23,051 bases of DNA from a virus. The position numbers and the translations under genes are program-made. The notes beneath the pieces are model-generated. The model was not told where the DNA came from and did not search any database. It saw nothing but the letters and a program-made list of their open reading frames with translations. This document shows, in pieces, positions 2,026-13,742 of the stretch (the stretch's first letter is position 1; the number at the start of each line of letters is the position of its first letter). Location: positions 1-23,051 of the IMG/VR virus record IMGVR_UViG_3300042539_000438, one strand, 5' to 3'.

Positions 2026-2550
2026 ATGGACGATAGATTGAAAGAAACCGGCCGCAGCGCATATGCGTCCATCTCGCAGATGGTGGCGGCGCTAGAGGTT
2101 GACTATGATCGGCTTATGGAGCTCCGAGAGGAGCGCCAGGCGTTGCTCGACATGATTGCGGACGCTGAATCGCACGAGAAAGCCGACGCGCGCGCCGAAC
2201 TTGCCCAGTGGGACGAAGAGAACAAAGACGAACTGGACGAATTAAGCGCCGACGCCGGCGAGTGTGTAAGCTTGGAAGAGGCGCAAACGCGAATCCAGGA
2301 AGACGCGCTATTAATCGAAGTCCGCAGCGGGTGGTGCGCGCTGGGCGACACGCTAGAGGCGGGGGAATTTAGCATTCTGCTAACCACGGGAGGCCCGGCC
2401 GTGTGGATTCGCGGCGAGCTAGACGACAACCGCGAGCCTTCCCGCGCATGGTTAGAGGTTCAGGACTGGGGGACGCCTTGGACGCGCTACTATGACGCCT
2501 CGCAAGAGGTGCTGCTCGCCTATGCGCGTTGTTTCTATTTCGGAGAGTGA
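2026..2550 (+). CDS. Conserved phage protein, coiled coil plus C-terminal domain
   Basis: Encodes 174 residues from ATG 2026 with ribosome binding site aagga at 2010-2014. Residues about 20-75 form a charged, heptad-like helix (VDYDRLMELREERQALLDMIADAESHEKADARAELAQWDEE). The C-terminal half (about 95-174) is a compact Trp-rich domain containing EVRSGWCALGDTLEAGEFSI and RAWLEVQDWGTPW. I recall similar sequences from proteobacterial phages and prophages annotated as hypothetical, but I cannot name a family. It overlaps nothing and sits directly before the XRE regulator, whose ribosome binding site lies at its 3' end. Confidence 0.8.
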   Translation: MDDRLKETGRSAYASISQMVAALEVDYDRLMELREERQALLDMIADAESHEKADARAELAQWDEENKDELDELSADAGECVSLEEAQTRIQEDALLIEVRSGWCALGDTLEAGEFSILLTTGGPAVWIRGELDDNREPSRAWLEVQDWGTPWTRYYDASQEVLLAYARCFYFGE

Positions 2551-2554
2551 GCTA

Positions 2555-2770
2555 ATGTCAAAATACAAGCCAATGCCGATAGCCGTGGCGCTACGCCAGC
2601 GCCGCAAGCAGCTACGGCTGTCACAAGCCGTAGTCGCAGAGAAGGCCGGTTACAACGCCAACGCCATATGGGCGTGGGAGACAGGATACTGCAAACCGTC
2701 GATCCCGCGCCTAATGGACTGGTGCGGGGCTCTTGGGCTCGAGCTAACAGTAAAGGTGAAAGATGGATAA
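2555..2770 (+). CDS. XRE-family helix-turn-helix regulator
   Basis: Encodes 71 residues with a Cro/CI-type DNA-binding fold: an RQRRKQLRLSQAVVAEKAGYN helix-turn-helix (about residues 14-34), then AIWAWETGYCKPSIPRLMDWCGALG, the usual third-to-fifth helices. It is a minimal XRE protein with no extra domain, so it probably binds DNA as a dimer and represses or modulates transcription. I chose ATG 2555 because ribosome binding site ggag (2542-2545) precedes it and the upstream in-frame start at 2492 lies deep in the preceding gene. Possible targets are the palindromes at 329-345 and 411-427 or the early promoter at 675-703. Its mid-operon position would allow autoregulation. Confidence 0.85.
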   Translation: MSKYKPMPIAVALRQRRKQLRLSQAVVAEKAGYNANAIWAWETGYCKPSIPRLMDWCGALGLELTVKVKDG

Positions 2771-2987
2771 CCCCCGCGAAATATTGAGCGACTCACTAGT
2801 GAAGCAAATCGCCCGCTTGCGGTCAGACCTGGAAGCCGAACGCGCTTGGACGAAGGCGCATGTCATCCTAGCCGAGCAATTGGTCGACATTACGAAAGAG
2901 CTAAAGCTAAAGTATTACGATGCCGAGCGCCGACTGAAGCTCAAAGACGAACTGATTCGCAAGCTAACGAACGAGGCGACGCAATGA
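2763..2987 (+). CDS. Small coiled-coil protein
   Basis: Encodes 74 residues from ATG 2763, overlapping the end of the XRE gene by eight bases, with an aaggtg ribosome binding site at 2753-2758. It is almost wholly predicted helix with heptad spacing of hydrophobics (SLVKQIARLRSDLEAE, LVDITKELKLKYYDAERRLKLKDELIRKL). No enzymatic motif. Close coupling to the regulator suggests co-expression; it may act as an oligomerisation or partner protein. Function unknown. Confidence 0.7.
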   Translation: MDNPREILSDSLVKQIARLRSDLEAERAWTKAHVILAEQLVDITKELKLKYYDAERRLKLKDELIRKLTNEATQ

Positions 2988-3145
2988 TCGACCTGGAAAT
3001 GGACACGCGGGCGCTAGAGGCCCTGCTAGACTACCTGGCGCTACAGCCCCGGCCGGGGCTTGTAGACGAAGCCTATAAGGCCCTACGCGAGGCGCATGAC
3101 AACGCCGCGGAAGATTACTGGGTGGGAGTGTGGAATGGAAACTGA
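2984..3145 (+). CDS. Small protein (53 aa), unknown function
   Basis: ATG 2984 overlaps the previous stop in an ATGA arrangement and is served by gagg at 2973-2976. The product starts MIDLEMDTRALEALLDYLAL and continues with an amphipathic helix (LVDEAYKALREAHDNAAEDYWVG). A longer reading of the same frame from 2846 has no support and would overlap most of the preceding gene. No family recognised. Confidence 0.65.
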   Translation: MIDLEMDTRALEALLDYLALQPRPGLVDEAYKALREAHDNAAEDYWVGVWNGN

Positions 3146-6023: not shown

Positions 6024-6225
6024 AGGATGGCGTCTCTCCGAACCCGAGCCCCGCCAATAGCTCTTGCGCCGACTCATGCGCCGCGCAGAGGCGTTCTATA
6101 ACCGCCTCCGGGCACTCATCATCGCCTGGCGTCGCCGCCCAGTCTAGATAGTCGTCGACTGACTCGGTTAGCTCTGCCAGCGTCTCTAGGACGTGCCTAT
6201 AAAGATCGATTGATGTTGACGACAT
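6022..6225 (-). CDS. Small acidic protein, last gene of replication operon (67 aa)
   Basis: I chose the ATG at 6225 (MSSTSIDLYRHVLETL) over an in-frame TTG at 6249, since the ggagaggg stretch just upstream can serve as ribosome binding site. The product is acidic and helical (LAELTESVDDYLDWAATPGDDECPEAVIERL). It overlaps the end of the primase-helicase gene by 29 bases, so translation is likely coupled. It has no known domain; it may be a small partner of the replication proteins. Its stop lies beside the early operon terminator. Confidence 0.65.
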   Translation of the reverse strand: MSSTSIDLYRHVLETLAELTESVDDYLDWAATPGDDECPEAVIERLCAAHESAQELLAGLGFGETPS

Positions 6226-8500
6226 TATTTTTCGACGCTCCCTCTCCAATTATCTTAGCCCATTCCCGGCGGATGTCAGAATTAGACCATTCCGCCAGCT
6301 CCGGCCGCACGAAACAATGCCGTTTAGTTGGATAATCTTTGGAGTAGATCAGTCCCTTGTCGATCCAACCAGCTTCTTTGAGCGCATGAAACAGCGCCGG
6401 CGGGAATATGCGCGTATTATTACCGGCGCTTTCGTTCAGTTCTTTAAGAACCTTGTGCCATGGCCCACCAATAATATCTTTGTCGAACGGTGCAATCCGT
6501 TCCTCGATCTCATGGAAAACAAAAGACTCGGCTTGGCTCATGCCAGTGTAGACCAGTTTGCGCTTGTAGTCGGTCATCATCGGCGGCTGTTTCGGGTTGA
6601 ACGCCGATACGTCGCGCGCGTAAAGCCACTGCGCTACGGCCTGGAAGCCTCCGGCCTTATACCAGTCCCACATATTGGCCGCGTCATGCTCGCTCATGCG
6701 GGCGGCGCTTGACCATATGCAGAACCAGCGCCGATCATCCGAATCGAGAGTGATAGGCATGTCTTCGTTTGTGAACGCGACCACAAGCAGCCGATTCGGC
6801 ATTTCGTAAGGATGCAGGCTCTTGCGATTAACAGTCAGCATCTCCGGCGGCGCGGCGATGATGGGCTTCAGTTTGTTCGCCATCGCCCGGCGGTCGCGCG
6901 CCTCGGGCTCTTTCAATTCATTAAGGATGATCACTTCGCTCTGGTAGTGATACCCCCAGTCCGAGACGATCTTATCGCCATCGATGATCTTGACATTCTG
7001 TAAACTGTCGCCCGACACGGCCCAAAAGAACGGAGCCCACATAGTATCTTTGCCGGAGCCGCCGTGGCCGCCGTGCAGCACGGCATGGTTGATCTTGATC
7101 CGCGGATTCTTTAGCTTGAACGCCATAACATTCCAGATGTGTTCAAGCTCTTCCTCGTTAGGAACCAGTTTGCGGCAATGGTCGATCCACCGCTGCGGAT
7201 CGCCGCCGGCGGTTATTGCGGGGCGGAAGTTACGCCAGACATTGCCGTAAACGAGCCCGTCCTTATGCACTTGCCAGTCGTCGCCGGCGGCGTAGGTCAT
7301 ACCGTGCAAGGCGTAGCCGTTGCGTTCCTCGCGGAACATATCGAACCACACGGACGCCTCTAGCCGGCGTTTCTTGCCGTCGCTGTTCTGCGCATAGCAG
7401 TCGACGTGACGATAGAGCGCGTTGAAAGCTTTGCGGCTTAGTTCCGAACACGTCTCGCGGTCGAAATAGGCGTCGTCAGTAGCGACATAAGCGAACCGCG
7501 CGTGCCAGCCGTCGCGTGTCTCGCGTCCGGCCTGCTTGCGCTCTACGGCTGCGATCTGCGGCGTCACGACATCAGGGAATGCCTCCGTCGGTTCGGGCGG
7601 CTGCATCTCGGTCAGCATGTCGGAGAGGATGTCGTCGCGCAGTCCTGGACGGCGACGCGGCCCACCCTGTTCACCCACCCACTCAAGAAAGGCTTCGCTG
7701 GTCAGATGTTCGCAATGGCCGTGAAAACAGAAGAACGCGCGGGACTGCGGCATATACCGCGCCTCGCCTTGACCGTCCGTATGCGCGGCGTGATTCGGGC
7801 ATACAACGCCCATCCAGCCTTCGTGATTTACGCGGGACGTAATAAGGTTGTTCTCATTCAGCCACGCCACGACATCATCTTTGCCGCTGTCCGTAAGCCG
7901 TATGTGATGCGTATTCGTCTCGACAGGCTCCAGCGTGACGCCGAACGCTTCGACGATCTGTGCGACGGTAAACTCGCGGGAAGGATCGAACGTCACTTCG
8001 CGGCACACGAAGTCCTCGCGGCCGGGCTTGCGATTTACCGACCCTGGAAGGCGACAGTTGCGCACGGGGTTGGTAGCGCCAGGATCGGTGTAGCCGGCCT
8101 TAGCGAGCGCGGTCAGAAGTGAACAGTGTTCGTCTACGGTAGGCTGGTCGCTGTAAGCGTACCAGTATTGGAAATTGCCGGGGCTTGTCTCAACGATGGC
8201 GGTAGGTGCGAGCGGTGGCTCTTTGGACTTGGTGCCGATGTCATCCAGCATCAGGAATAGGACATGCGTGCAATGGTTCCTGGATGCAGATGGCTGGCCA
8301 TCCTCAAACCGCTCGCGGATAAAGCTGCCGGTGTTTATATAAAAAGACTCGCCTTCGCGGCGCTTACGCTTCGGATAATACGCCGGCCATGTGTAGCGCG
8401 GCGAGCCGTCCAGATACGTGCGGCCGGTAGCGATTTGCTGCACGATGAGCGCCGTCTCGCCCTCGGGCGCAAGCTTTGTGAAGTATTCAAAGAGTGTCAT
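6197..8500 (-). CDS. Primase-polymerase / SF3-type helicase fusion
   Basis: This 767-residue replication protein combines priming and unwinding. The N-terminal 190 residues resemble archaeo-eukaryotic-type (RepB/PrimPol-like) primases: a DD pair in FLMLDDIGT (86-87), ETSPGNFQYWY (104-114) and RNCRLPGSVNRKPG (147-160). Residues 233-265 hold a Cys/His cluster (VCPNHAAH...CFHGHCEH) likely to bind zinc. The C-terminal part has a Walker A loop GGHGGSGKDT (477-486), a Walker B-like VIILNELKE (523-531) and NRLLVVAFTNED (569-580), as in D5/VapE-type superfamily 3 helicases. ATG 8500 overlaps the previous stop (ATGA). It probably primes and unwinds DNA for the polymerase encoded upstream. Domain assignment is by motif only. 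Confidence 0.85.
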   Translation of the reverse strand: MTLFEYFTKLAPEGETALIVQQIATGRTYLDGSPRYTWPAYYPKRKRREGESFYINTGSFIRERFEDGQPSASRNHCTHVLFLMLDDIGTKSKEPPLAPTAIVETSPGNFQYWYAYSDQPTVDEHCSLLTALAKAGYTDPGATNPVRNCRLPGSVNRKPGREDFVCREVTFDPSREFTVAQIVEAFGVTLEPVETNTHHIRLTDSGKDDVVAWLNENNLITSRVNHEGWMGVVCPNHAAHTDGQGEARYMPQSRAFFCFHGHCEHLTSEAFLEWVGEQGGPRRRPGLRDDILSDMLTEMQPPEPTEAFPDVVTPQIAAVERKQAGRETRDGWHARFAYVATDDAYFDRETCSELSRKAFNALYRHVDCYAQNSDGKKRRLEASVWFDMFREERNGYALHGMTYAAGDDWQVHKDGLVYGNVWRNFRPAITAGGDPQRWIDHCRKLVPNEEELEHIWNVMAFKLKNPRIKINHAVLHGGHGGSGKDTMWAPFFWAVSGDSLQNVKIIDGDKIVSDWGYHYQSEVIILNELKEPEARDRRAMANKLKPIIAAPPEMLTVNRKSLHPYEMPNRLLVVAFTNEDMPITLDSDDRRWFCIWSSAARMSEHDAANMWDWYKAGGFQAVAQWLYARDVSAFNPKQPPMMTDYKRKLVYTGMSQAESFVFHEIEERIAPFDKDIIGGPWHKVLKELNESAGNNTRIFPPALFHALKEAGWIDKGLIYSKDYPTKRHCFVRPELAEWSNSDIRREWAKIIGEGASKNNVVNINRSL

Positions 8501-9222
8501 TTTTCCTCGCAGAATATGCCACAGTCTGTCTGCATGTTCTTAAGCGCGCGCCCTTTAGCGTTTTCTGGTAGCTCATCCAAAAACAACCGCCGCCCTTTAT
8601 ATCGTACCAGCCTAGCACCCAACACACGCGATTGCGCTGCGCGGTCGGCGTAAATCTGCGGGTATTCTTTACGCACTAAATTCCAATAAGTAGGTGATGT
8701 AGCCTTGACGCATCCTATACAGTTGGCGTTAGGAAAACCTTTGCTGTATATGCGCGGCGGCGAAATCCCGGCTGTTAATATAACGTCAAGACAGTCCTGT
8801 TTTGTCAGCCCTGCATCAATCAGCACAGGCAGCACGTTGCTGCGCTCTGACATAATAAATCGATTAAACCGATCGCGCTCATCAACCGTAAAACCTAAAA
8901 CATGCCAGTCTGCTTTATTAGTCTGTTCCCACTCTTGGCGCGCGCGTTTTTTAAGTTCTATGGTGCAGGGAGCGCCTAGCGGCCCTGACATAAATGAGCG
9001 TCGCGTCCATACATCGCGCGCGGAACATGATGGATATTTGCTATTTACCGCGCGCTCAATCTTGACATTGAGCCACGATTCGACATCGCGCAAAAAACGC
9101 ATATTGTCAGCGTCTTCTTCCATAACAGGATTATTAATGACGCGAACATCAGTATATTTTTCAAGTGTTAATTTAGCGGCGACGGCACTGGCAGCGCCAC
9201 AAGAAAACCAGACAGCAATCAT
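8497..9222 (-). CDS. PAPS reductase-like ATP pyrophosphatase
   Basis: Encodes 241 residues. ATG 9222 overlaps the polymerase stop (ATGA) and has gggag eight to twelve bases upstream. The N-terminal MIAVWFSCGAASAVAAKL contains a PP-loop-type motif (SCGAASAV, 7-14), a variant of the SGGxDS loop that binds ATP in the PAPS reductase / DndC family. Conserved-looking GAPCTIELKK follows at 83-92, and Cys pairs occur at 168/171 (NCIGC) and 234/238 (CGIFC), which could hold a metal or Fe-S cluster. Phage members are common but poorly understood. A place between polymerase and primase suggests DNA or nucleotide modification rather than sulfate assimilation; that is inference. Confidence 0.82.
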   Translation of the reverse strand: MIAVWFSCGAASAVAAKLTLEKYTDVRVINNPVMEEDADNMRFLRDVESWLNVKIERAVNSKYPSCSARDVWTRRSFMSGPLGAPCTIELKKRARQEWEQTNKADWHVLGFTVDERDRFNRFIMSERSNVLPVLIDAGLTKQDCLDVILTAGISPPRIYSKGFPNANCIGCVKATSPTYWNLVRKEYPQIYADRAAQSRVLGARLVRYKGRRLFLDELPENAKGRALKNMQTDCGIFCEEK

Positions 9223-11975
9223 TTGCCATATCTCCCCATTATGCTCGCTTCTACGTCGAGCGGTAAACCTTCGGCCCAAGCGGGCGGCGTCGTCATGGCT
9301 TCTATGAGAGCGGCTTTCGCGGCTTCCGGCTGGTCAGTCTCCAGAACAATTTCATCGTGAACATGCAGGACCACACCAGGCAAACGGCGGAGAGCCTCAC
9401 GTAGAAGGTCATGGGCGGTCGCCTGTGTGACGTTCTCGCAAGCCAGCCCACGCCAGAGACGCGCACGAGGCCAAGCCTTAGCGTCCGCCGCAGGCTTCCA
9501 AGCCGCCTTCGCATAGGTAATATCGCCGTTCTCTTCAAATCGCGCGAACGGATAGCAAAGCACACGGCCAGAAGGCAGGCAATACCAGAGATGATTCTTG
9601 TCCGCGACATAGGAAATCCTGCCCGCAGTAAACACGCGGCCCTTATTGCGCAGCGCACGGTTGTAAGCCTCTTCAAGATCACCCCAGAACGGCAGCGCCC
9701 ATGCGTTAGCGCGCCGCCAAGCGTCCACCATGCTCCGCGCCTGCGCCTCGGGCAGATGCACGCCATAGACGCGGCCCATGGCTGCGAACGCGCCGATACC
9801 GCCGCCGAAGCCGCAGTTGTGGACTATCATAGGGCCGGAATTTGTAAGAACCGTAAACCTATTATTCGGCCCCGCTTCCACTATGTCGTAGACGGGCCTC
9901 CAAGTCGTCGATTCGACGCTGTAAGGCGCGGATGGACCGTTTATTGTTGCAATTCTCTCTGCGCGATACGAACCGTAAATTGCCCGGTTCGTAGCCTTTA
10001 TCCACGTCGATGCGGTCCAAATCCAAGTTTGGCTGATCCCACCCATCCAATGTGACGACATAGCGCAAAAAAGCGGCTTTGTCGGTACGCCAAGGTTCAT
10101 ACAACTTAATCCCGCGCCCGCCATAGTTAGCATACCCACGATCTTTTGGGTTGTGGCAGCGGTTCTTACACGCAGATAGTCTATTAAGTAGCCGCCGGCG
10201 ATGCGCGTCGTCAGGACACGCCTCGGCGTATTTGAAGTAATCTTTTCGCCAGAACCCAGCCGCTTTTCTAGCGCATGAATTGCAGCGCGTAGATGCGCCT
10301 TTAAGAAGATTGTATAGTTGGACCATGTGTGGAGGCGCACCGCAGGAGCATTGGACCACAACGCATCGCGTTTTTGCCACGCCGTATTGCGCCATAACGC
10401 TGTCGACCACGGTAAGTTCGCCGAACCTGTCGCCAGGGCTTGGGTCTGGAACGCGCTTGATAAATGTACCGTCTTCGCGGCGATCCACTCGCGTTGCGCC
10501 AGAAATAGATGGTCCTCCGTGGCGTACATTCCGCACACGGAGATAGTCGGCTTTACCCCCCGTTGAATCGGTCCTTTGTGAGTTACCCATGATATTCCGT
10601 CCCATAATTTATGATCTGTAGATACATCCACTATAGCCATCCATCCGGCATCTGTCAAAACTAACGTATCTTCGGATACACAGGCCAATTCCTGCACCTT
10701 GCCAATCTGGCGCTGGTCCTTCGTCACAGCGTCGTAAGTCGTGCGAAACGTCTCGGCGGCGTTGACTTTGTAAACGTCAAGCCCCTCGCGGAACTGTTTA
10801 AGCTTGGCGTCGCCGCGGCCTGAGAGCCACGGGTTGACGCGGCCTTCGATAGCGGACCAGTCAGCCACTACGAACGTCTTACCTTCCGCCGGTATCAAGG
10901 CGGGCCGAAGCATCCCACGCAATACGTCGGTGACTCGCCGCCCGTGGTGAGGCACGATGGCATGGCCATGAACCATTGCACGTCGCACGGCTTCCGGGTG
11001 CTCGGCGCACTTACGTGTGAAGTTGTGGACCTGAGCGCCATAGCTCGACGCTCTGCCCGTAGCTGATCCTCCGGCGAAAACAAAAGCGCCGCGCACACGA
11101 TCATCGACCGCAGCCAGACGAGCCAGACGATCAAACTTAGCGACGCTGGAAGCCCATAGATCATCAGCGCATTGGATAACTTCTTTGACATCGGGGGGCA
11201 CCTCTTCTGGATCGTCAAGCGCAAGCAGGTTGGCGCGCACGGTTTTGTCGGTTGAATACTTGCCGTCGCGCTCCATCAGTTTAAGCGCCTGCGGGCCTAC
11301 GCGCTCCATCACCCACTTGCGCATACGCGGGCTGCGCACGCTAAGGACTTCGCCGTTCGTCACCTCGCGGACGGTCGACTCGATCTCAACGCGCTCATTC
11401 TCGGCGTATTGCACGGCGGCTAGGCATAGGTCGCGGTCGATACGCACGCCGCGGTCGTTAATGCGCTCATTGACGTGGTAGTCGGCCAGCTCTTCGTCGG
11501 TTAGCTCGCGCAGCATCTTGCTGACGGCGCGCATAGTGCGCACGTCCTGCTCGCAATATTCGTAGAGTTCCGGCAACAGGTCTTGCCGGAACGGCGGCGT
11601 GCAGCACTTGCGCACGAGATACGGCCCGCGCGTGTCCTTACGCATGGCCGCGCCGGCGAACCGGCCAACGTCTTCTAGTGATCCTGGCGCACAGTTCGCA
11701 CGCGCCTGCGCGGCCGTGCAGTAGAACTGTTCCAGCGGTATCGGCATCTTCAACACGTGCCAGAAGATCAGCCGCTCGAACGCCGCGTTGTGCGCCCGCA
11801 CTTGGCCTTTGATCTCCGGCATTGGCTGGCCGGGCGTCCAGGTCTGCACGTCGCCATCGTCATAGGCGTAGGACATGCACAGCACTTTAGTCGTGTGATC
11901 CTGCGCGTAGTTGTAAACACCGCGCTCCCGCAAGTCGCACTCGCTTGCGGTTTCCATATCTACCCACGTTATCAT
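9219..11975 (-). CDS. Family A DNA polymerase with embedded intein
   Basis: The precursor is 918 residues; excising the 289-residue intein (432-720) leaves 629. The N-terminal DEDD exonuclease shows WVDMET (D6, E8), AHNAAFERL (about 61-69) and YEYCEQDV (about 138-145). The polymerase domain has motif A VADWSAIEGR (about 370-379), motif B residues QIGKVQELA then CGFGGGIGAF, split by the intein, and motif C LHVHDEIVLE (His873-Asp874). It copies the phage genome, with the exonuclease providing proofreading. I chose ATG 11975 because agagg lies about nine bases upstream and the next in-frame start (12086) is inside the preceding gene. Without splicing, motif B would be interrupted and activity lost. 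Confidence 0.92.
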   Translation of the reverse strand: MITWVDMETASECDLRERGVYNYAQDHTTKVLCMSYAYDDGDVQTWTPGQPMPEIKGQVRAHNAAFERLIFWHVLKMPIPLEQFYCTAAQARANCAPGSLEDVGRFAGAAMRKDTRGPYLVRKCCTPPFRQDLLPELYEYCEQDVRTMRAVSKMLRELTDEELADYHVNERINDRGVRIDRDLCLAAVQYAENERVEIESTVREVTNGEVLSVRSPRMRKWVMERVGPQALKLMERDGKYSTDKTVRANLLALDDPEEVPPDVKEVIQCADDLWASSVAKFDRLARLAAVDDRVRGAFVFAGGSATGRASSYGAQVHNFTRKCAEHPEAVRRAMVHGHAIVPHHGRRVTDVLRGMLRPALIPAEGKTFVVADWSAIEGRVNPWLSGRGDAKLKQFREGLDVYKVNAAETFRTTYDAVTKDQRQIGKVQELACVSEDTLVLTDAGWMAIVDVSTDHKLWDGISWVTHKGPIQRGVKPTISVCGMYATEDHLFLAQREWIAAKTVHLSSAFQTQALATGSANLPWSTALWRNTAWQKRDALWSNAPAVRLHTWSNYTIFLKAHLRAAIHALEKRLGSGEKITSNTPRRVLTTRIAGGYLIDYLRVRTAATTQKIVGMLTMAGAGLSCMNLGVPTKPLFCAMSSHWMGGISQTWIWTASTWIKATNRAIYGSYRAERIATINGPSAPYSVESTTWRPVYDIVEAGPNNRFTVLTNSGPMIVHNCGFGGGIGAFAAMGRVYGVHLPEAQARSMVDAWRRANAWALPFWGDLEEAYNRALRNKGRVFTAGRISYVADKNHLWYCLPSGRVLCYPFARFEENGDITYAKAAWKPAADAKAWPRARLWRGLACENVTQATAHDLLREALRRLPGVVLHVHDEIVLETDQPEAAKAALIEAMTTPPAWAEGLPLDVEASIMGRYGK
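9816..10682 (-). mobile_element. Intein in polymerase motif B
   Basis: The 289-codon insertion starts with Cys (codon 10680-10682) and ends His-Asn (9816-9821), followed by Cys as first residue of the C-extein: a complete class 1 splice junction. Block A is CVSEDTLVLTDAGWMAIVDV (1-20), block B YATEDHLFL with Thr55 and His58, block F PVYDIVEAGPNNRFTV (263-278), block G NSGPMIVHN ending at 289. All are in the polymerase frame, so protein splicing is expected. The region between B and F is not a recognisable in-frame endonuclease; it is the out-of-frame reading of the HNH gene at 9862-10605. Insertion at an essential catalytic motif is typical of inteins, since imprecise loss is lethal to the enzyme. 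Confidence 0.9.
9862..10605 (-). CDS. HNH-type homing endonuclease nested out of frame in the intein
   Basis: An open frame of 247 residues in the -1 frame relative to the intein covers intein codons 26-274. From about residue 54 it reads PSPGDRFGELTVVDSV, then a four-Cys zinc ribbon (Cys86, Cys88, Cys108, Cys111), a KNRCHNPKDRGYANYGGRGI motif (147-166) and LDLDRIDVDKGYEPGNLRFV (194-213) with RRENCNNKR. This layout is that of phage HNH/AP2-type homing endonucleases (LDRID...Y.PGN.R). It would cut intein-less polymerase genes to spread the intein. ATG 10605 or ATG 10590 may start it, but neither has a strong ribosome binding site. It ends with tandem stops (TAA TAG) just inside block F. Family match good; expression unproven. 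Confidence 0.82.
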   Translation of the reverse strand: MGRNIMGNSQRTDSTGGKADYLRVRNVRHGGPSISGATRVDRREDGTFIKRVPDPSPGDRFGELTVVDSVMAQYGVAKTRCVVVQCSCGAPPHMVQLYNLLKGASTRCNSCARKAAGFWRKDYFKYAEACPDDAHRRRLLNRLSACKNRCHNPKDRGYANYGGRGIKLYEPWRTDKAAFLRYVVTLDGWDQPNLDLDRIDVDKGYEPGNLRFVSRRENCNNKRSIRALQRRIDDLEARLRHSGSGAE

Positions 11976-11999
11976 TGAAGCAACCTCTACAGATGAGAA

Positions 12000-12017
12000 C
12001 GGGGGCTTTCGCCCCCG
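12000..12017 (-). promoter_or_regulatory. Intercistronic hairpin before polymerase gene
   Basis: The 7-bp GC stem cgggggc / gcccccg with a four-base loop (gaaa on the - strand, a GNRA tetraloop) lies between the stop of the upstream gene (12025) and the polymerase start (11975). On the - strand it is followed by TTCTCATC, a poor U-tract. It is the only appreciable gap in this otherwise overlapping operon, so it may be an attenuator, an RNase processing site or an mRNA-stabilising structure that tunes polymerase levels. Confidence 0.6.
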
Positions 12018-12024
12018 CTTCATG

Positions 12025-12672
12025 TTACGCCCGCCGACGACGGCCAGTGTCACCCGCAGATGCGGATTCCTCCACCGGTTCGCCATCCATCGTCATCCAG
12101 TCGATGATCTCAAAGACAGGATAGAAGATGCGGCCGTAGGTCTTGTGCTGGTAGGTCGATGATCCCAGCTTGCAGACCGCCACAGTAGCCGGCGACTGCG
12201 TATTGATGCGCTTGCCGACGTTTACGCCCAGCTCGGCGACGGCTCTCTTGCCGCCGGCTGAAGTCGTCGCAAAGCGCGCCTCAATACCTTCGTCGTCGCC
12301 ACTAAGGCACTTCATGCTGAGCCCGAGCTGCTGCTCCCATCCGCGCTTTGCAGCAACGGGCGGAGCGTCGAGCTGGTCAACCGTGCGAGGCGCGGCCTTG
12401 TCATAAGCAGAAAAGATACGCTCTGCGAGGACTTCGCCTTCACCCCATGCAACCCAACCCTTCACGAACGAAGCGGGGTTAACCGCCCAACGTCCATCGG
12501 GGTCAATCAAGGTCTGGTCAGCGCCGTAAACCCAGTGGCCGGTTTTATCCATCTTGATGATGACATTACCGCCCACACCGATTTCGTCGCCAAGGCTCAT
12601 TAGTGCATTGCCAAGGTCAACATCCGCCGGAAGATTAGCGTTACCGAACTTTGTCATGCCAGTCATTGTCAT
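12025..12672 (-). CDS. Replication-associated protein, probable ssDNA-binding type
   Basis: Encodes 215 residues; ATG 12672 overlaps the exonuclease stop (TAATG). The sequence is mixed beta-rich (GNVIIKMDKTGHWVYGADQT, RWAVNPASFVKGWVAWGEGE, then GRIFYPVFEIIDWMTMDGEP) with a disordered acidic/basic end (EESASAGDTGRRRR). I recognise the general gene order exonuclease - this protein - polymerase from phages, where such proteins are conserved but mostly unnamed. A single-stranded DNA-binding or annealing role fits the position and the charged flexible tail, but no diagnostic OB-fold motif can be read by eye. I cannot name a family. Confidence 0.72.
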   Translation of the reverse strand: MTMTGMTKFGNANLPADVDLGNALMSLGDEIGVGGNVIIKMDKTGHWVYGADQTLIDPDGRWAVNPASFVKGWVAWGEGEVLAERIFSAYDKAAPRTVDQLDAPPVAAKRGWEQQLGLSMKCLSGDDEGIEARFATTSAGGKRAVAELGVNVGKRINTQSPATVAVCKLGSSTYQHKTYGRIFYPVFEIIDWMTMDGEPVEESASAGDTGRRRRA

Positions 12673-13742
12673 TACCTTACGTTAGAGAAAGCACGGATAA
12701 GATCGTTTCCGTGTGTAAGCACCTCCGGCCTCGGATCGCTCTCCGGCGCGATGGTGTTACCTGTTGAGATGGCGACCGTCAGGTCTTTAGGAAGCTTGCC
12801 CGCAATCTTTTCGACTTGCGCGGGCGACTTCATCACCATCAAATCCGAATCATCCAATCCCATTTTTGTGAGAGCCGCTCTTGCGGCGTCGGGATCGGCC
12901 CATTGTCTAGTTGCTCTCTTAGGGACAAGCTTCCAGCCCGTGACCGGGGCGTTGCTCTCCAGCATCGTTTGCGCCATTTCACGAACGCTCTTAGCCCATT
13001 CTTCCGCAACCTGCGCAAACGCCAAAGCATGTCCAATCTTCTCCGGGTCAATAGCGGCGATCTTTGTAGACACCGCGCGCTCGAGCTGTCCAGTCACCTC
13101 GGGGCACACGGCCTTGGCCGGGCACCAGCGGCAATGATCGCCCTGCTTCAGCGGCGCGTCGGGCTTAAACGAAGCTTGCACGGCGTCGAACAGCACGCGC
13201 TCGAACGCCTTTACGCGACCGGGCGTCGTAAGCCACCGGCTAACACGCGGCGGCTGCACGATTATCATTTCGATCTCAGTGACGCCTTCAAACGCCCAAC
13301 GTGTTTCGGCGGTGCGCATAGCAGCAGCAGCGTAGAAGAGAAGCTGATCGTTCTCTTCAGCATCCACCGCCACCCCATCACCAAACTTCCAATCGAGTAG
13401 AATTGCACGATTGCCAATACGGCCAAGCAAGTCGCATGATCCGAATACGCCGGCAAGAAACCCTCCAAAATGCACCGTGATCTCGGTTTGAAACTCCATG
13501 CCGCGGTTAGGATCGATCTCATTCAAAGAGTCGAGAGCAAATCTTAACTTTTCGTTGTTGTCAAACGAGTCGATGGTTTCGTCTAGAGACAGGATCGCGT
13601 GCATCGCATTGTGCAACCGCGTGCCTTCCTCGGCGTAACTGCTTGTGGGCTTTGGGGGAACCGTCTCGACAAGCGCCCGTGAGCCGGGGCAGTTGATAAG
13701 ACGCTTGGCGGTCGAACCGCCGACTATTTTGCTGTGTGACAT
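12672..13742 (-). CDS. Cas4-like PD-(D/E)XK exonuclease (DUF2800-like)
   Basis: Encodes 356 residues, first gene of the replication operon, with an agagagg-type ribosome binding site upstream of ATG 13742. It has the RecB/Cas4 nuclease layout: GTRLHNAMHAI with His44, FGSCDLL with Asp104, LLDWKFG with Asp117 and Lys119, and QLLFYAAA (about 133-140). One Cys near the N-terminus (INCPGS, Cys18) and three later (CRWCPAKAVCPE: Cys204, Cys207, Cys213) match the four ligands of the Fe-S cluster in Cas4/AddB-type nucleases. It matches DUF2800-type phage proteins. The likely job is DNA end processing for recombination or replication. Family assignment by motif and gene order is fairly sure. Confidence 0.87.
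   Translation of the reverse strand: MSHSKIVGGSTAKRLINCPGSRALVETVPPKPTSSYAEEGTRLHNAMHAILSLDETIDSFDNNEKLRFALDSLNEIDPNRGMEFQTEITVHFGGFLAGVFGSCDLLGRIGNRAILLDWKFGDGVAVDAEENDQLLFYAAAAMRTAETRWAFEGVTEIEMIIVQPPRVSRWLTTPGRVKAFERVLFDAVQASFKPDAPLKQGDHCRWCPAKAVCPEVTGQLERAVSTKIAAIDPEKIGHALAFAQVAEEWAKSVREMAQTMLESNAPVTGWKLVPKRATRQWADPDAARAALTKMGLDDSDLMVMKSPAQVEKIAGKLPKDLTVAISTGNTIAPESDPRPEVLTHGNDLIRAFSNVR

Follow-up and report, generated by a model that had tools for sequence, protein, structure and literature searches.

The DNA analyzed here, called the window below, is a 23,051-base virus fragment from IMG/VR. On its minus strand an ORF for a family-A DNA polymerase runs without interruption through an intein, from C1 (10682) to N289 (9816), and a gene for an HNH endonuclease lies within the intein in the -1 frame. 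The features are the following.

9219..12086, minus strand: family-A DNA polymerase ORF with the intein inside (PF00476, E = 1.5e-16; phrog_17, E = 1.6e-81)
9816..10682, minus strand: intein in the polymerase frame, 289 aa, C1...HN289, with the extein residue Cys+1 at 9815-9813
10458..10682, minus strand: N-terminal splicing region, blocks A and B, residues 1-75 (pLDDT > 90; dNN/dSN 0.12 ahead of the HNH start and 0.33 in the overlap)
9816..9911, minus strand: C-terminal splicing region, blocks F and G, residues 258-289 (pLDDT > 90; dNN/dSN 0.17)
9930..10448, minus strand: in-frame linker from block B to block F, mostly disordered and stop-free; the same DNA encodes the HNH core
9862..10590, minus strand: HNH endonuclease gene in the -1 frame inside the intein, 242 aa plus stop (phrog_374; selection; relatives)
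10588..10590, minus strand: probable HNH start codon (ATG, GTG or TTG in 104 of 109 distinct +2 inteins)
10273..10350, minus strand: zinc-ribbon-like CxC...CxxC, HNH residues 81-106 (C81, C83, C103 and C106 invariant)
9937..10017, minus strand: HNH core DRID...GY.P.N.RF......N..N.R, residues 192-218 (invariant residues)

The polymerase probably starts at ATG 11975 (MITWVD...) and not at the first ATG (12086), by analogy with its intein-free relative MW202483 (L219). Its 3' end is overlapped by a gene at 8500-9240 on the minus strand (MIAVWFSCGAASAVAAKL...), which had 0 matches in a Pfam search and which we presume to be like the PAPS-reductase-like phage proteins. Other replication genes lie nearby, namely those for a RepB-type primase/DUF5906 protein (6200-8500) and a DUF2800/PD-(D/E)XK protein (12675-13742), all on the minus strand. 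The DUF2800 gene is two genes upstream of polA, which is reminiscent of the gene order in SETP3.

As the first-pass annotation had proposed, the intein occupies 289 open codons of the polymerase frame with its splicing motifs in place: block A CVSEDTLVLT, block B ATEDHLFL, block F VYDIVEAGPNNRF and block G VHN, followed by Cys+1. C1, T55, H58, V264, D266, H288 and N289 are invariant in an alignment of 19 inteins, and the +1 residue is C or S in all 121 distinct inteins, for which the parser demanded C, S or T. AlphaFold2 models a Hint fold with pLDDT > 90 at residues 1-90 and 258-289, and the top PDB matches of this model in Foldseek are mini-inteins, the best being the DnaX mini-intein 7cfv (E = 5e-4). 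The Pfam intein profile PF14890 gave 0 matches to the intein though it matched control genomes; the profile is functional but falls short of reaching the polA intein group. What lies in frame between blocks B and F had been described as no known endonuclease. This description holds, since a Pfam search gave no match and residues 105-257 have pLDDT < 50 in the AlphaFold2 model, most of the linker being at about 30, as for disorder. Mini-inteins of 135-158 aa without HNH are found in polymerase genes (L258, L259, L303, L311, L243, L249, L271, L273 and L274). Because they do without most of the linker, this in-frame stretch looks less like a designed linker than like something tolerated as a by-product of the HNH gene.

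The presence of an HNH endonuclease in the -1 frame, also claimed earlier, is confirmed by an ORF of 247 codons (10605-9862), which reaches back to ATG 10605 and ends with the stop at 9862. Its product matches two PHROG HNH endonuclease families, phrog_374 (E = 2.4e-34) and phrog_3377 (E = 2.3e-22). The core reads DRID...GYEPGNLRF at this locus, and D192, R193, Y200, P202, N204, R206, F207, N213, N216 and R218 are invariant. The AlphaFold2 model of the HNH protein has a mean pLDDT of 70, which is moderate. PDB searches with the HNH protein gave nothing significant by fold (best E = 0.24) or by sequence, and a Pfam search gave nothing meaningful; the nuclease call therefore rests on the PHROG profiles, the motif and homology. 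The motif DR.D...GY.P.N suggests an R.PacI-like active site. This idea was unsupported by the PDB sequence and fold searches and is kept as a lead only.

The offset between the two frames is shared by the relatives. Among 218 loci classed after profile scans, the HNH frame is at +2 in 202, at +1 in 13 and in frame in 0; the intein was unrecognized at 3, of which two lie at contig edges and one (L131) is a free-standing HNH gene. Loci are shared between scans, and the distinct inteins number 121 (109 at +2 and 12 at +1). Since HNH-based scans could bias the frame counts, a second scan used the N-terminal splicing block alone, and it yielded 62 at +2, 9 at +1 and 9 mini-inteins (135-158 aa) without HNH. 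Scans of genome contigs gave 0 loci with the P0002 query and 18 loci with the profile. The +2 offset is found in the IMG/VR matches L003-L029 and in the following isolate or named phages: Sodalis SO-1, the Salmonella phages Ent1, SETP3 and templet, Pseudomonas MR14, Shigella EP23, Vibrio 97.13 and EBPR siphovirus 2. An identical stretch lies on a second IMG/VR contig (L001), which may come from the same sample and so does not count as independent support.

These counts bear on the reading that the HNH domain is truly fused in frame and was shifted by two indels in sequencing or assembly. The sign of such an error would be relatives with HNH in the intein frame, and none was found in either scan, neither among the 218 loci nor with the splicing domain only. 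The identical offset is present in the isolates SETP3, Ent1, SO-1, MR14, EP23 and Vibrio 97.13, and about a hundred distinct sequences share it. Because the offset is conserved, the artefact is refuted, and we give it practically no probability. On the same counts, the out-of-frame HNH arrangement is a conserved family and not a single locus.

Where translation of the HNH protein would begin can be judged from the relatives. Several of them have an HNH-frame stop between 10605 and 10590, so with moderate confidence ATG 10590 (HNH residue 6) is the more likely start than ATG 10605. At this position the 109 distinct +2 inteins have ATG in 78, GTG in 21, TTG in 5, CTG in 3 and GTT in 2. We downgraded this conservation from strong to only moderate evidence, because a conserved Trp codon TGG alone forces NTG. 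ATG 10590 is preceded by GGGACGGAATATC, which is weakly Shine-Dalgarno-like, and the Shine-Dalgarno matches overall are weak. In two relatives (L073 and L128) the HNH frame closes 3-4 codons past the usual start while the downstream HNH domain is intact, so these two must start further downstream.

Programmed ribosomal frameshifting from the polymerase frame would instead produce an extein-HNH fusion and no free HNH protein. The offset of -1 agrees with this, as do 16 of the 109 inteins in which the HNH frame has no stop from the intein start to the HNH start. However, in the other 93 a stop closes the HNH frame inside the intein upstream of the start, in 30 of them 1-2 codons ahead of it. The +1 class would require the opposite shift, and the start region, inspected by eye, has no conserved slippery site. 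Frameshifting is thus quite improbable, and the upstream stops in 93 of 109 inteins favor internal initiation over it.

An alternative frame open by chance had been judged unlikely from a uniform-codon estimate (7 in a million) and untenable in view of the domain match. Shuffling of synonymous HNH codons is a better null, and it upholds that judgment: at this locus it gives a mean of 6.6 intein-frame stops, and the fraction of the 1000 trials with zero stops was printed as 0.000. In the 121 distinct inteins the linker has 0 stops in the intein frame, against means of 2.9 (+2, n = 109) and 8.4 (+1) expected from the same kind of shuffling. In five free-standing HNH relatives, the corresponding frame is interrupted by 1-25 stops.

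Linker changes in pairs of related loci were also sorted by their effect in each frame, by a simple method in which pairs are non-independent and silent HNH sites are near saturation in distant pairs. In the HNH frame the median dNN/dNS of the linker is 0.09 (14 pairs), with strong constraint in every pair. In the intein frame dNN/dSN is 0.62, a ratio that scatters widely among pairs. A pseudo-frame of the extein in the same register served as a control for measurement bias behind this contrast between frames, which we rejected, and gave dNN/dSN of 0.81-0.89. Next to the 0.81-0.89 of the pseudo-frames, 0.62 implies at most weak amino-acid constraint on the in-frame linker. In the splicing blocks the intein-frame dNN/dSN is 0.12 before the HNH start and 0.17 in blocks F and G, and the overlap in blocks A-B is constrained in both frames, at 0.33 (intein-frame dNN/dSN) and 0.36. 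Judged by these ratios and the stop counts, selection is acting on both layers, the HNH frame and the intein frame. The proposal that one DNA segment codes for both a splicing linker and a nuclease is borne out by the offset, which stays constant across about a hundred distinct relatives, by the purifying selection on HNH, by the stop-free intein frame and by the lack of any relative with HNH in the intein frame.

Several annotated phages already contain the arrangement. In Sodalis phage SO-1 (+2 class; gp38/gp39) the nested HNH is annotated and labelled a 'type I self-splicing intron', which would make the element a group I intron with an HNH gene. A search of 9600-10900 against Rfam gave 0 matches even at E <= 5, and no intron family was found by Rfam in L030, L031, L032, L036, L038 or L003. 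The Hint blocks are conserved and the polymerase frame is open, which also speaks against an intron, and we regard it as extremely unlikely. In Ent1 (+2 class) polA is annotated as an 'intein encoding splicing domains' with the endonuclease omitted, and the helicase of the same phage (L031) is annotated with a LAGLIDADG intein. In APSE-1 (+1 class) P45 is annotated with a nested ORF, P46. A dual-coding intein is named in none of the Ent1, SO-1 and APSE-1 annotations.

We now turn to mobility. HNH and extein identities correlate overall (Spearman 0.54), so much of the inheritance is vertical. Some pairs are strongly incongruent: L072 and L076 have an HNH identity of 0.76 versus 0.31 for the extein, and L101 and L109 are the reverse case with 0.46 versus 0.65. 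An empty site is seen in the polymerase of MW202483, which has no intein, is 69.6% identical across the junction and reads EQRQVGKVQELACGFGGG. Two of the mini-inteins, L258 and L311, retain a linker stub. That of L258, ILSQALEIAVKALPLQA, is similar to the beginning of the overprinted linker in L175 (ILSQALGIGAANLPLQA), as would be expected of deletion derivatives. In the +2 class the intein immediately precedes either of two polymerase positions, which are close together (mostly four residues apart) and carry the required Cys or Ser. The disagreement between HNH and polymerase histories, together with the intein-free allele, suggests mobility. Of the earlier claim of a dual-coding mobile element, the mobile part is thus upheld by inference only, from this incongruence, the empty site and the derivatives without HNH.

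The HNH protein could be translated and selected without serving for homing here; it would then be a nuclease or DNA-binding protein that has become domesticated, for instance to compete with co-infecting phages. It is widespread and fairly stable in the polymerases of Jerseyvirus, which is consistent with such a role, as is the correlation of HNH and extein identities. However, the strong HNH/extein incongruence in several pairs is against it, and the empty and HNH-deleted alleles as well as the location within an intein fit homing. We therefore consider domestication unlikely.

In a quick tree of HNH proteins, in which some supports are low, the +2 proteins form one clade (SH-aLRT 99) and the Firmicutes/Streptococcus +1 type forms a separate clade (SH-aLRT 99). 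The APSE/Caulobacter/Shewanella +1 type (site B2) is placed among free-standing HNH genes. Two frames and differing insertion positions call for either a frame switch or two or more independent origins. It is reasonably probable that these elements represent a widespread, previously unrecognized class of inteins with an overprinted endonuclease, having at least two origins, two frames (+2, and +1 in the APSE/Caulobacter/Shewanella and Firmicutes/Streptococcus types), several polA positions and a cycle of their own in which invasion is followed by deletion of HNH and a mini-intein stage.

For the locus itself, the element is very likely a mobile intein of phage polA with a homing-type HNH endonuclease overprinted in the -1 frame. 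From the open frames, their offset, selection, the splicing residues and the empty and deleted alleles, all of which are read from sequence, we infer splicing, internal initiation, cutting and homing. A ribosome in the polymerase frame would make the full precursor, from which the Hint domain (blocks A, B, F and G) would excise itself, joining the polymerase halves before Cys+1. The linker derived from HNH DNA would be a disordered loop, on which the sole demand would be the absence of stops. A second ribosome would start within the intein, probably at ATG 10590, and yield the 242-aa HNH protein. This protein may cut intein-free polA at or near the conserved ...GKVQELA|CGFGGG, and repair would then copy the element. 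The arrangement may have arisen by insertion of a free HNH gene, out of frame, into the Hint loop, after which synonymous changes in HNH purged the stops from the polymerase frame.

Inteins are usually described with the endonuclease as a fused in-frame domain. Those with an in-frame LAGLIDADG or HNH endonuclease likewise have a splicing domain with the endonuclease in the B-F loop. In them, however, the spliced protein includes the endonuclease, whereas the polA element encodes it in a different frame, from which a separate protein would be made. Dassa and coworkers are said to have described, in 2009, fractured genes in which split inteins have a free-standing endonuclease gene between the halves. 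There too the endonuclease is made apart from the splicing domain. A fractured gene has the host gene in two ORFs, whereas the polymerase ORF is continuous, at this locus and in its relatives, and is overlapped by the endonuclease. Mobile group I introns with an HNH gene likewise nest a homing nuclease gene in a splicing element, but the polA element has a protein splicing domain, not a ribozyme, and no Rfam match.

Other HNH genes lie in or beside phage polymerase genes. In Escherichia phage U1G (L221, 750-4169) the annotation splits DNA polymerase I into two genes, between which lies an HNH gene of the same broad family; we considered a split intein there and rejected it, as no intein blocks were seen by eye. 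In Salmonella phage SAP012 the DNA polymerase gene has no intein, and an unannotated free-standing HNH gene (L222, ~2501-3046) overlaps its 3' end. SO-1 (L030, 4349-4951) and SETP3 (L041, 4462-4959) have a second, annotated free-standing HNH gene just downstream of the intein-bearing polymerase.

The closest precedent in the literature is the 'ShiLan' insertion of 2025, an out-of-frame HNH in mycobacteriophage methylases, in which the authors could not identify an intein (PMC11855218). They propose that the insert stays in the methylase, and they found no intein or intron splicing domain in it (PMC11855218). In both cases HNH is in another frame, the host frame is open, the start is internal (in polA probably so) and the sporadic distribution is read as homing. 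Unlike ShiLan, the polA element has a complete Hint domain around HNH and is found in many phage groups. A 2025 preprint cited in the same paper deals with actinobacteriophage inteins of 'non-canonical architecture' (PMC11855218) and may include similar cases. What appears to be new here is an intein with an overprinted homing-type endonuclease; the near precedent has no intein.

In conclusion, the nuclease and the splicing domain of this element would be separate proteins from one DNA, each of which could be produced apart from the other, and each substitution in HNH must leave the polymerase frame open. This accounts for the long inteins annotated without an endonuclease in SETP3-like phages, which are common in laboratories. 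The element is a natural long same-strand gene overlap in which selection is detectable in both frames, and it offers a way to test how an intein comes to be invaded by a homing gene.
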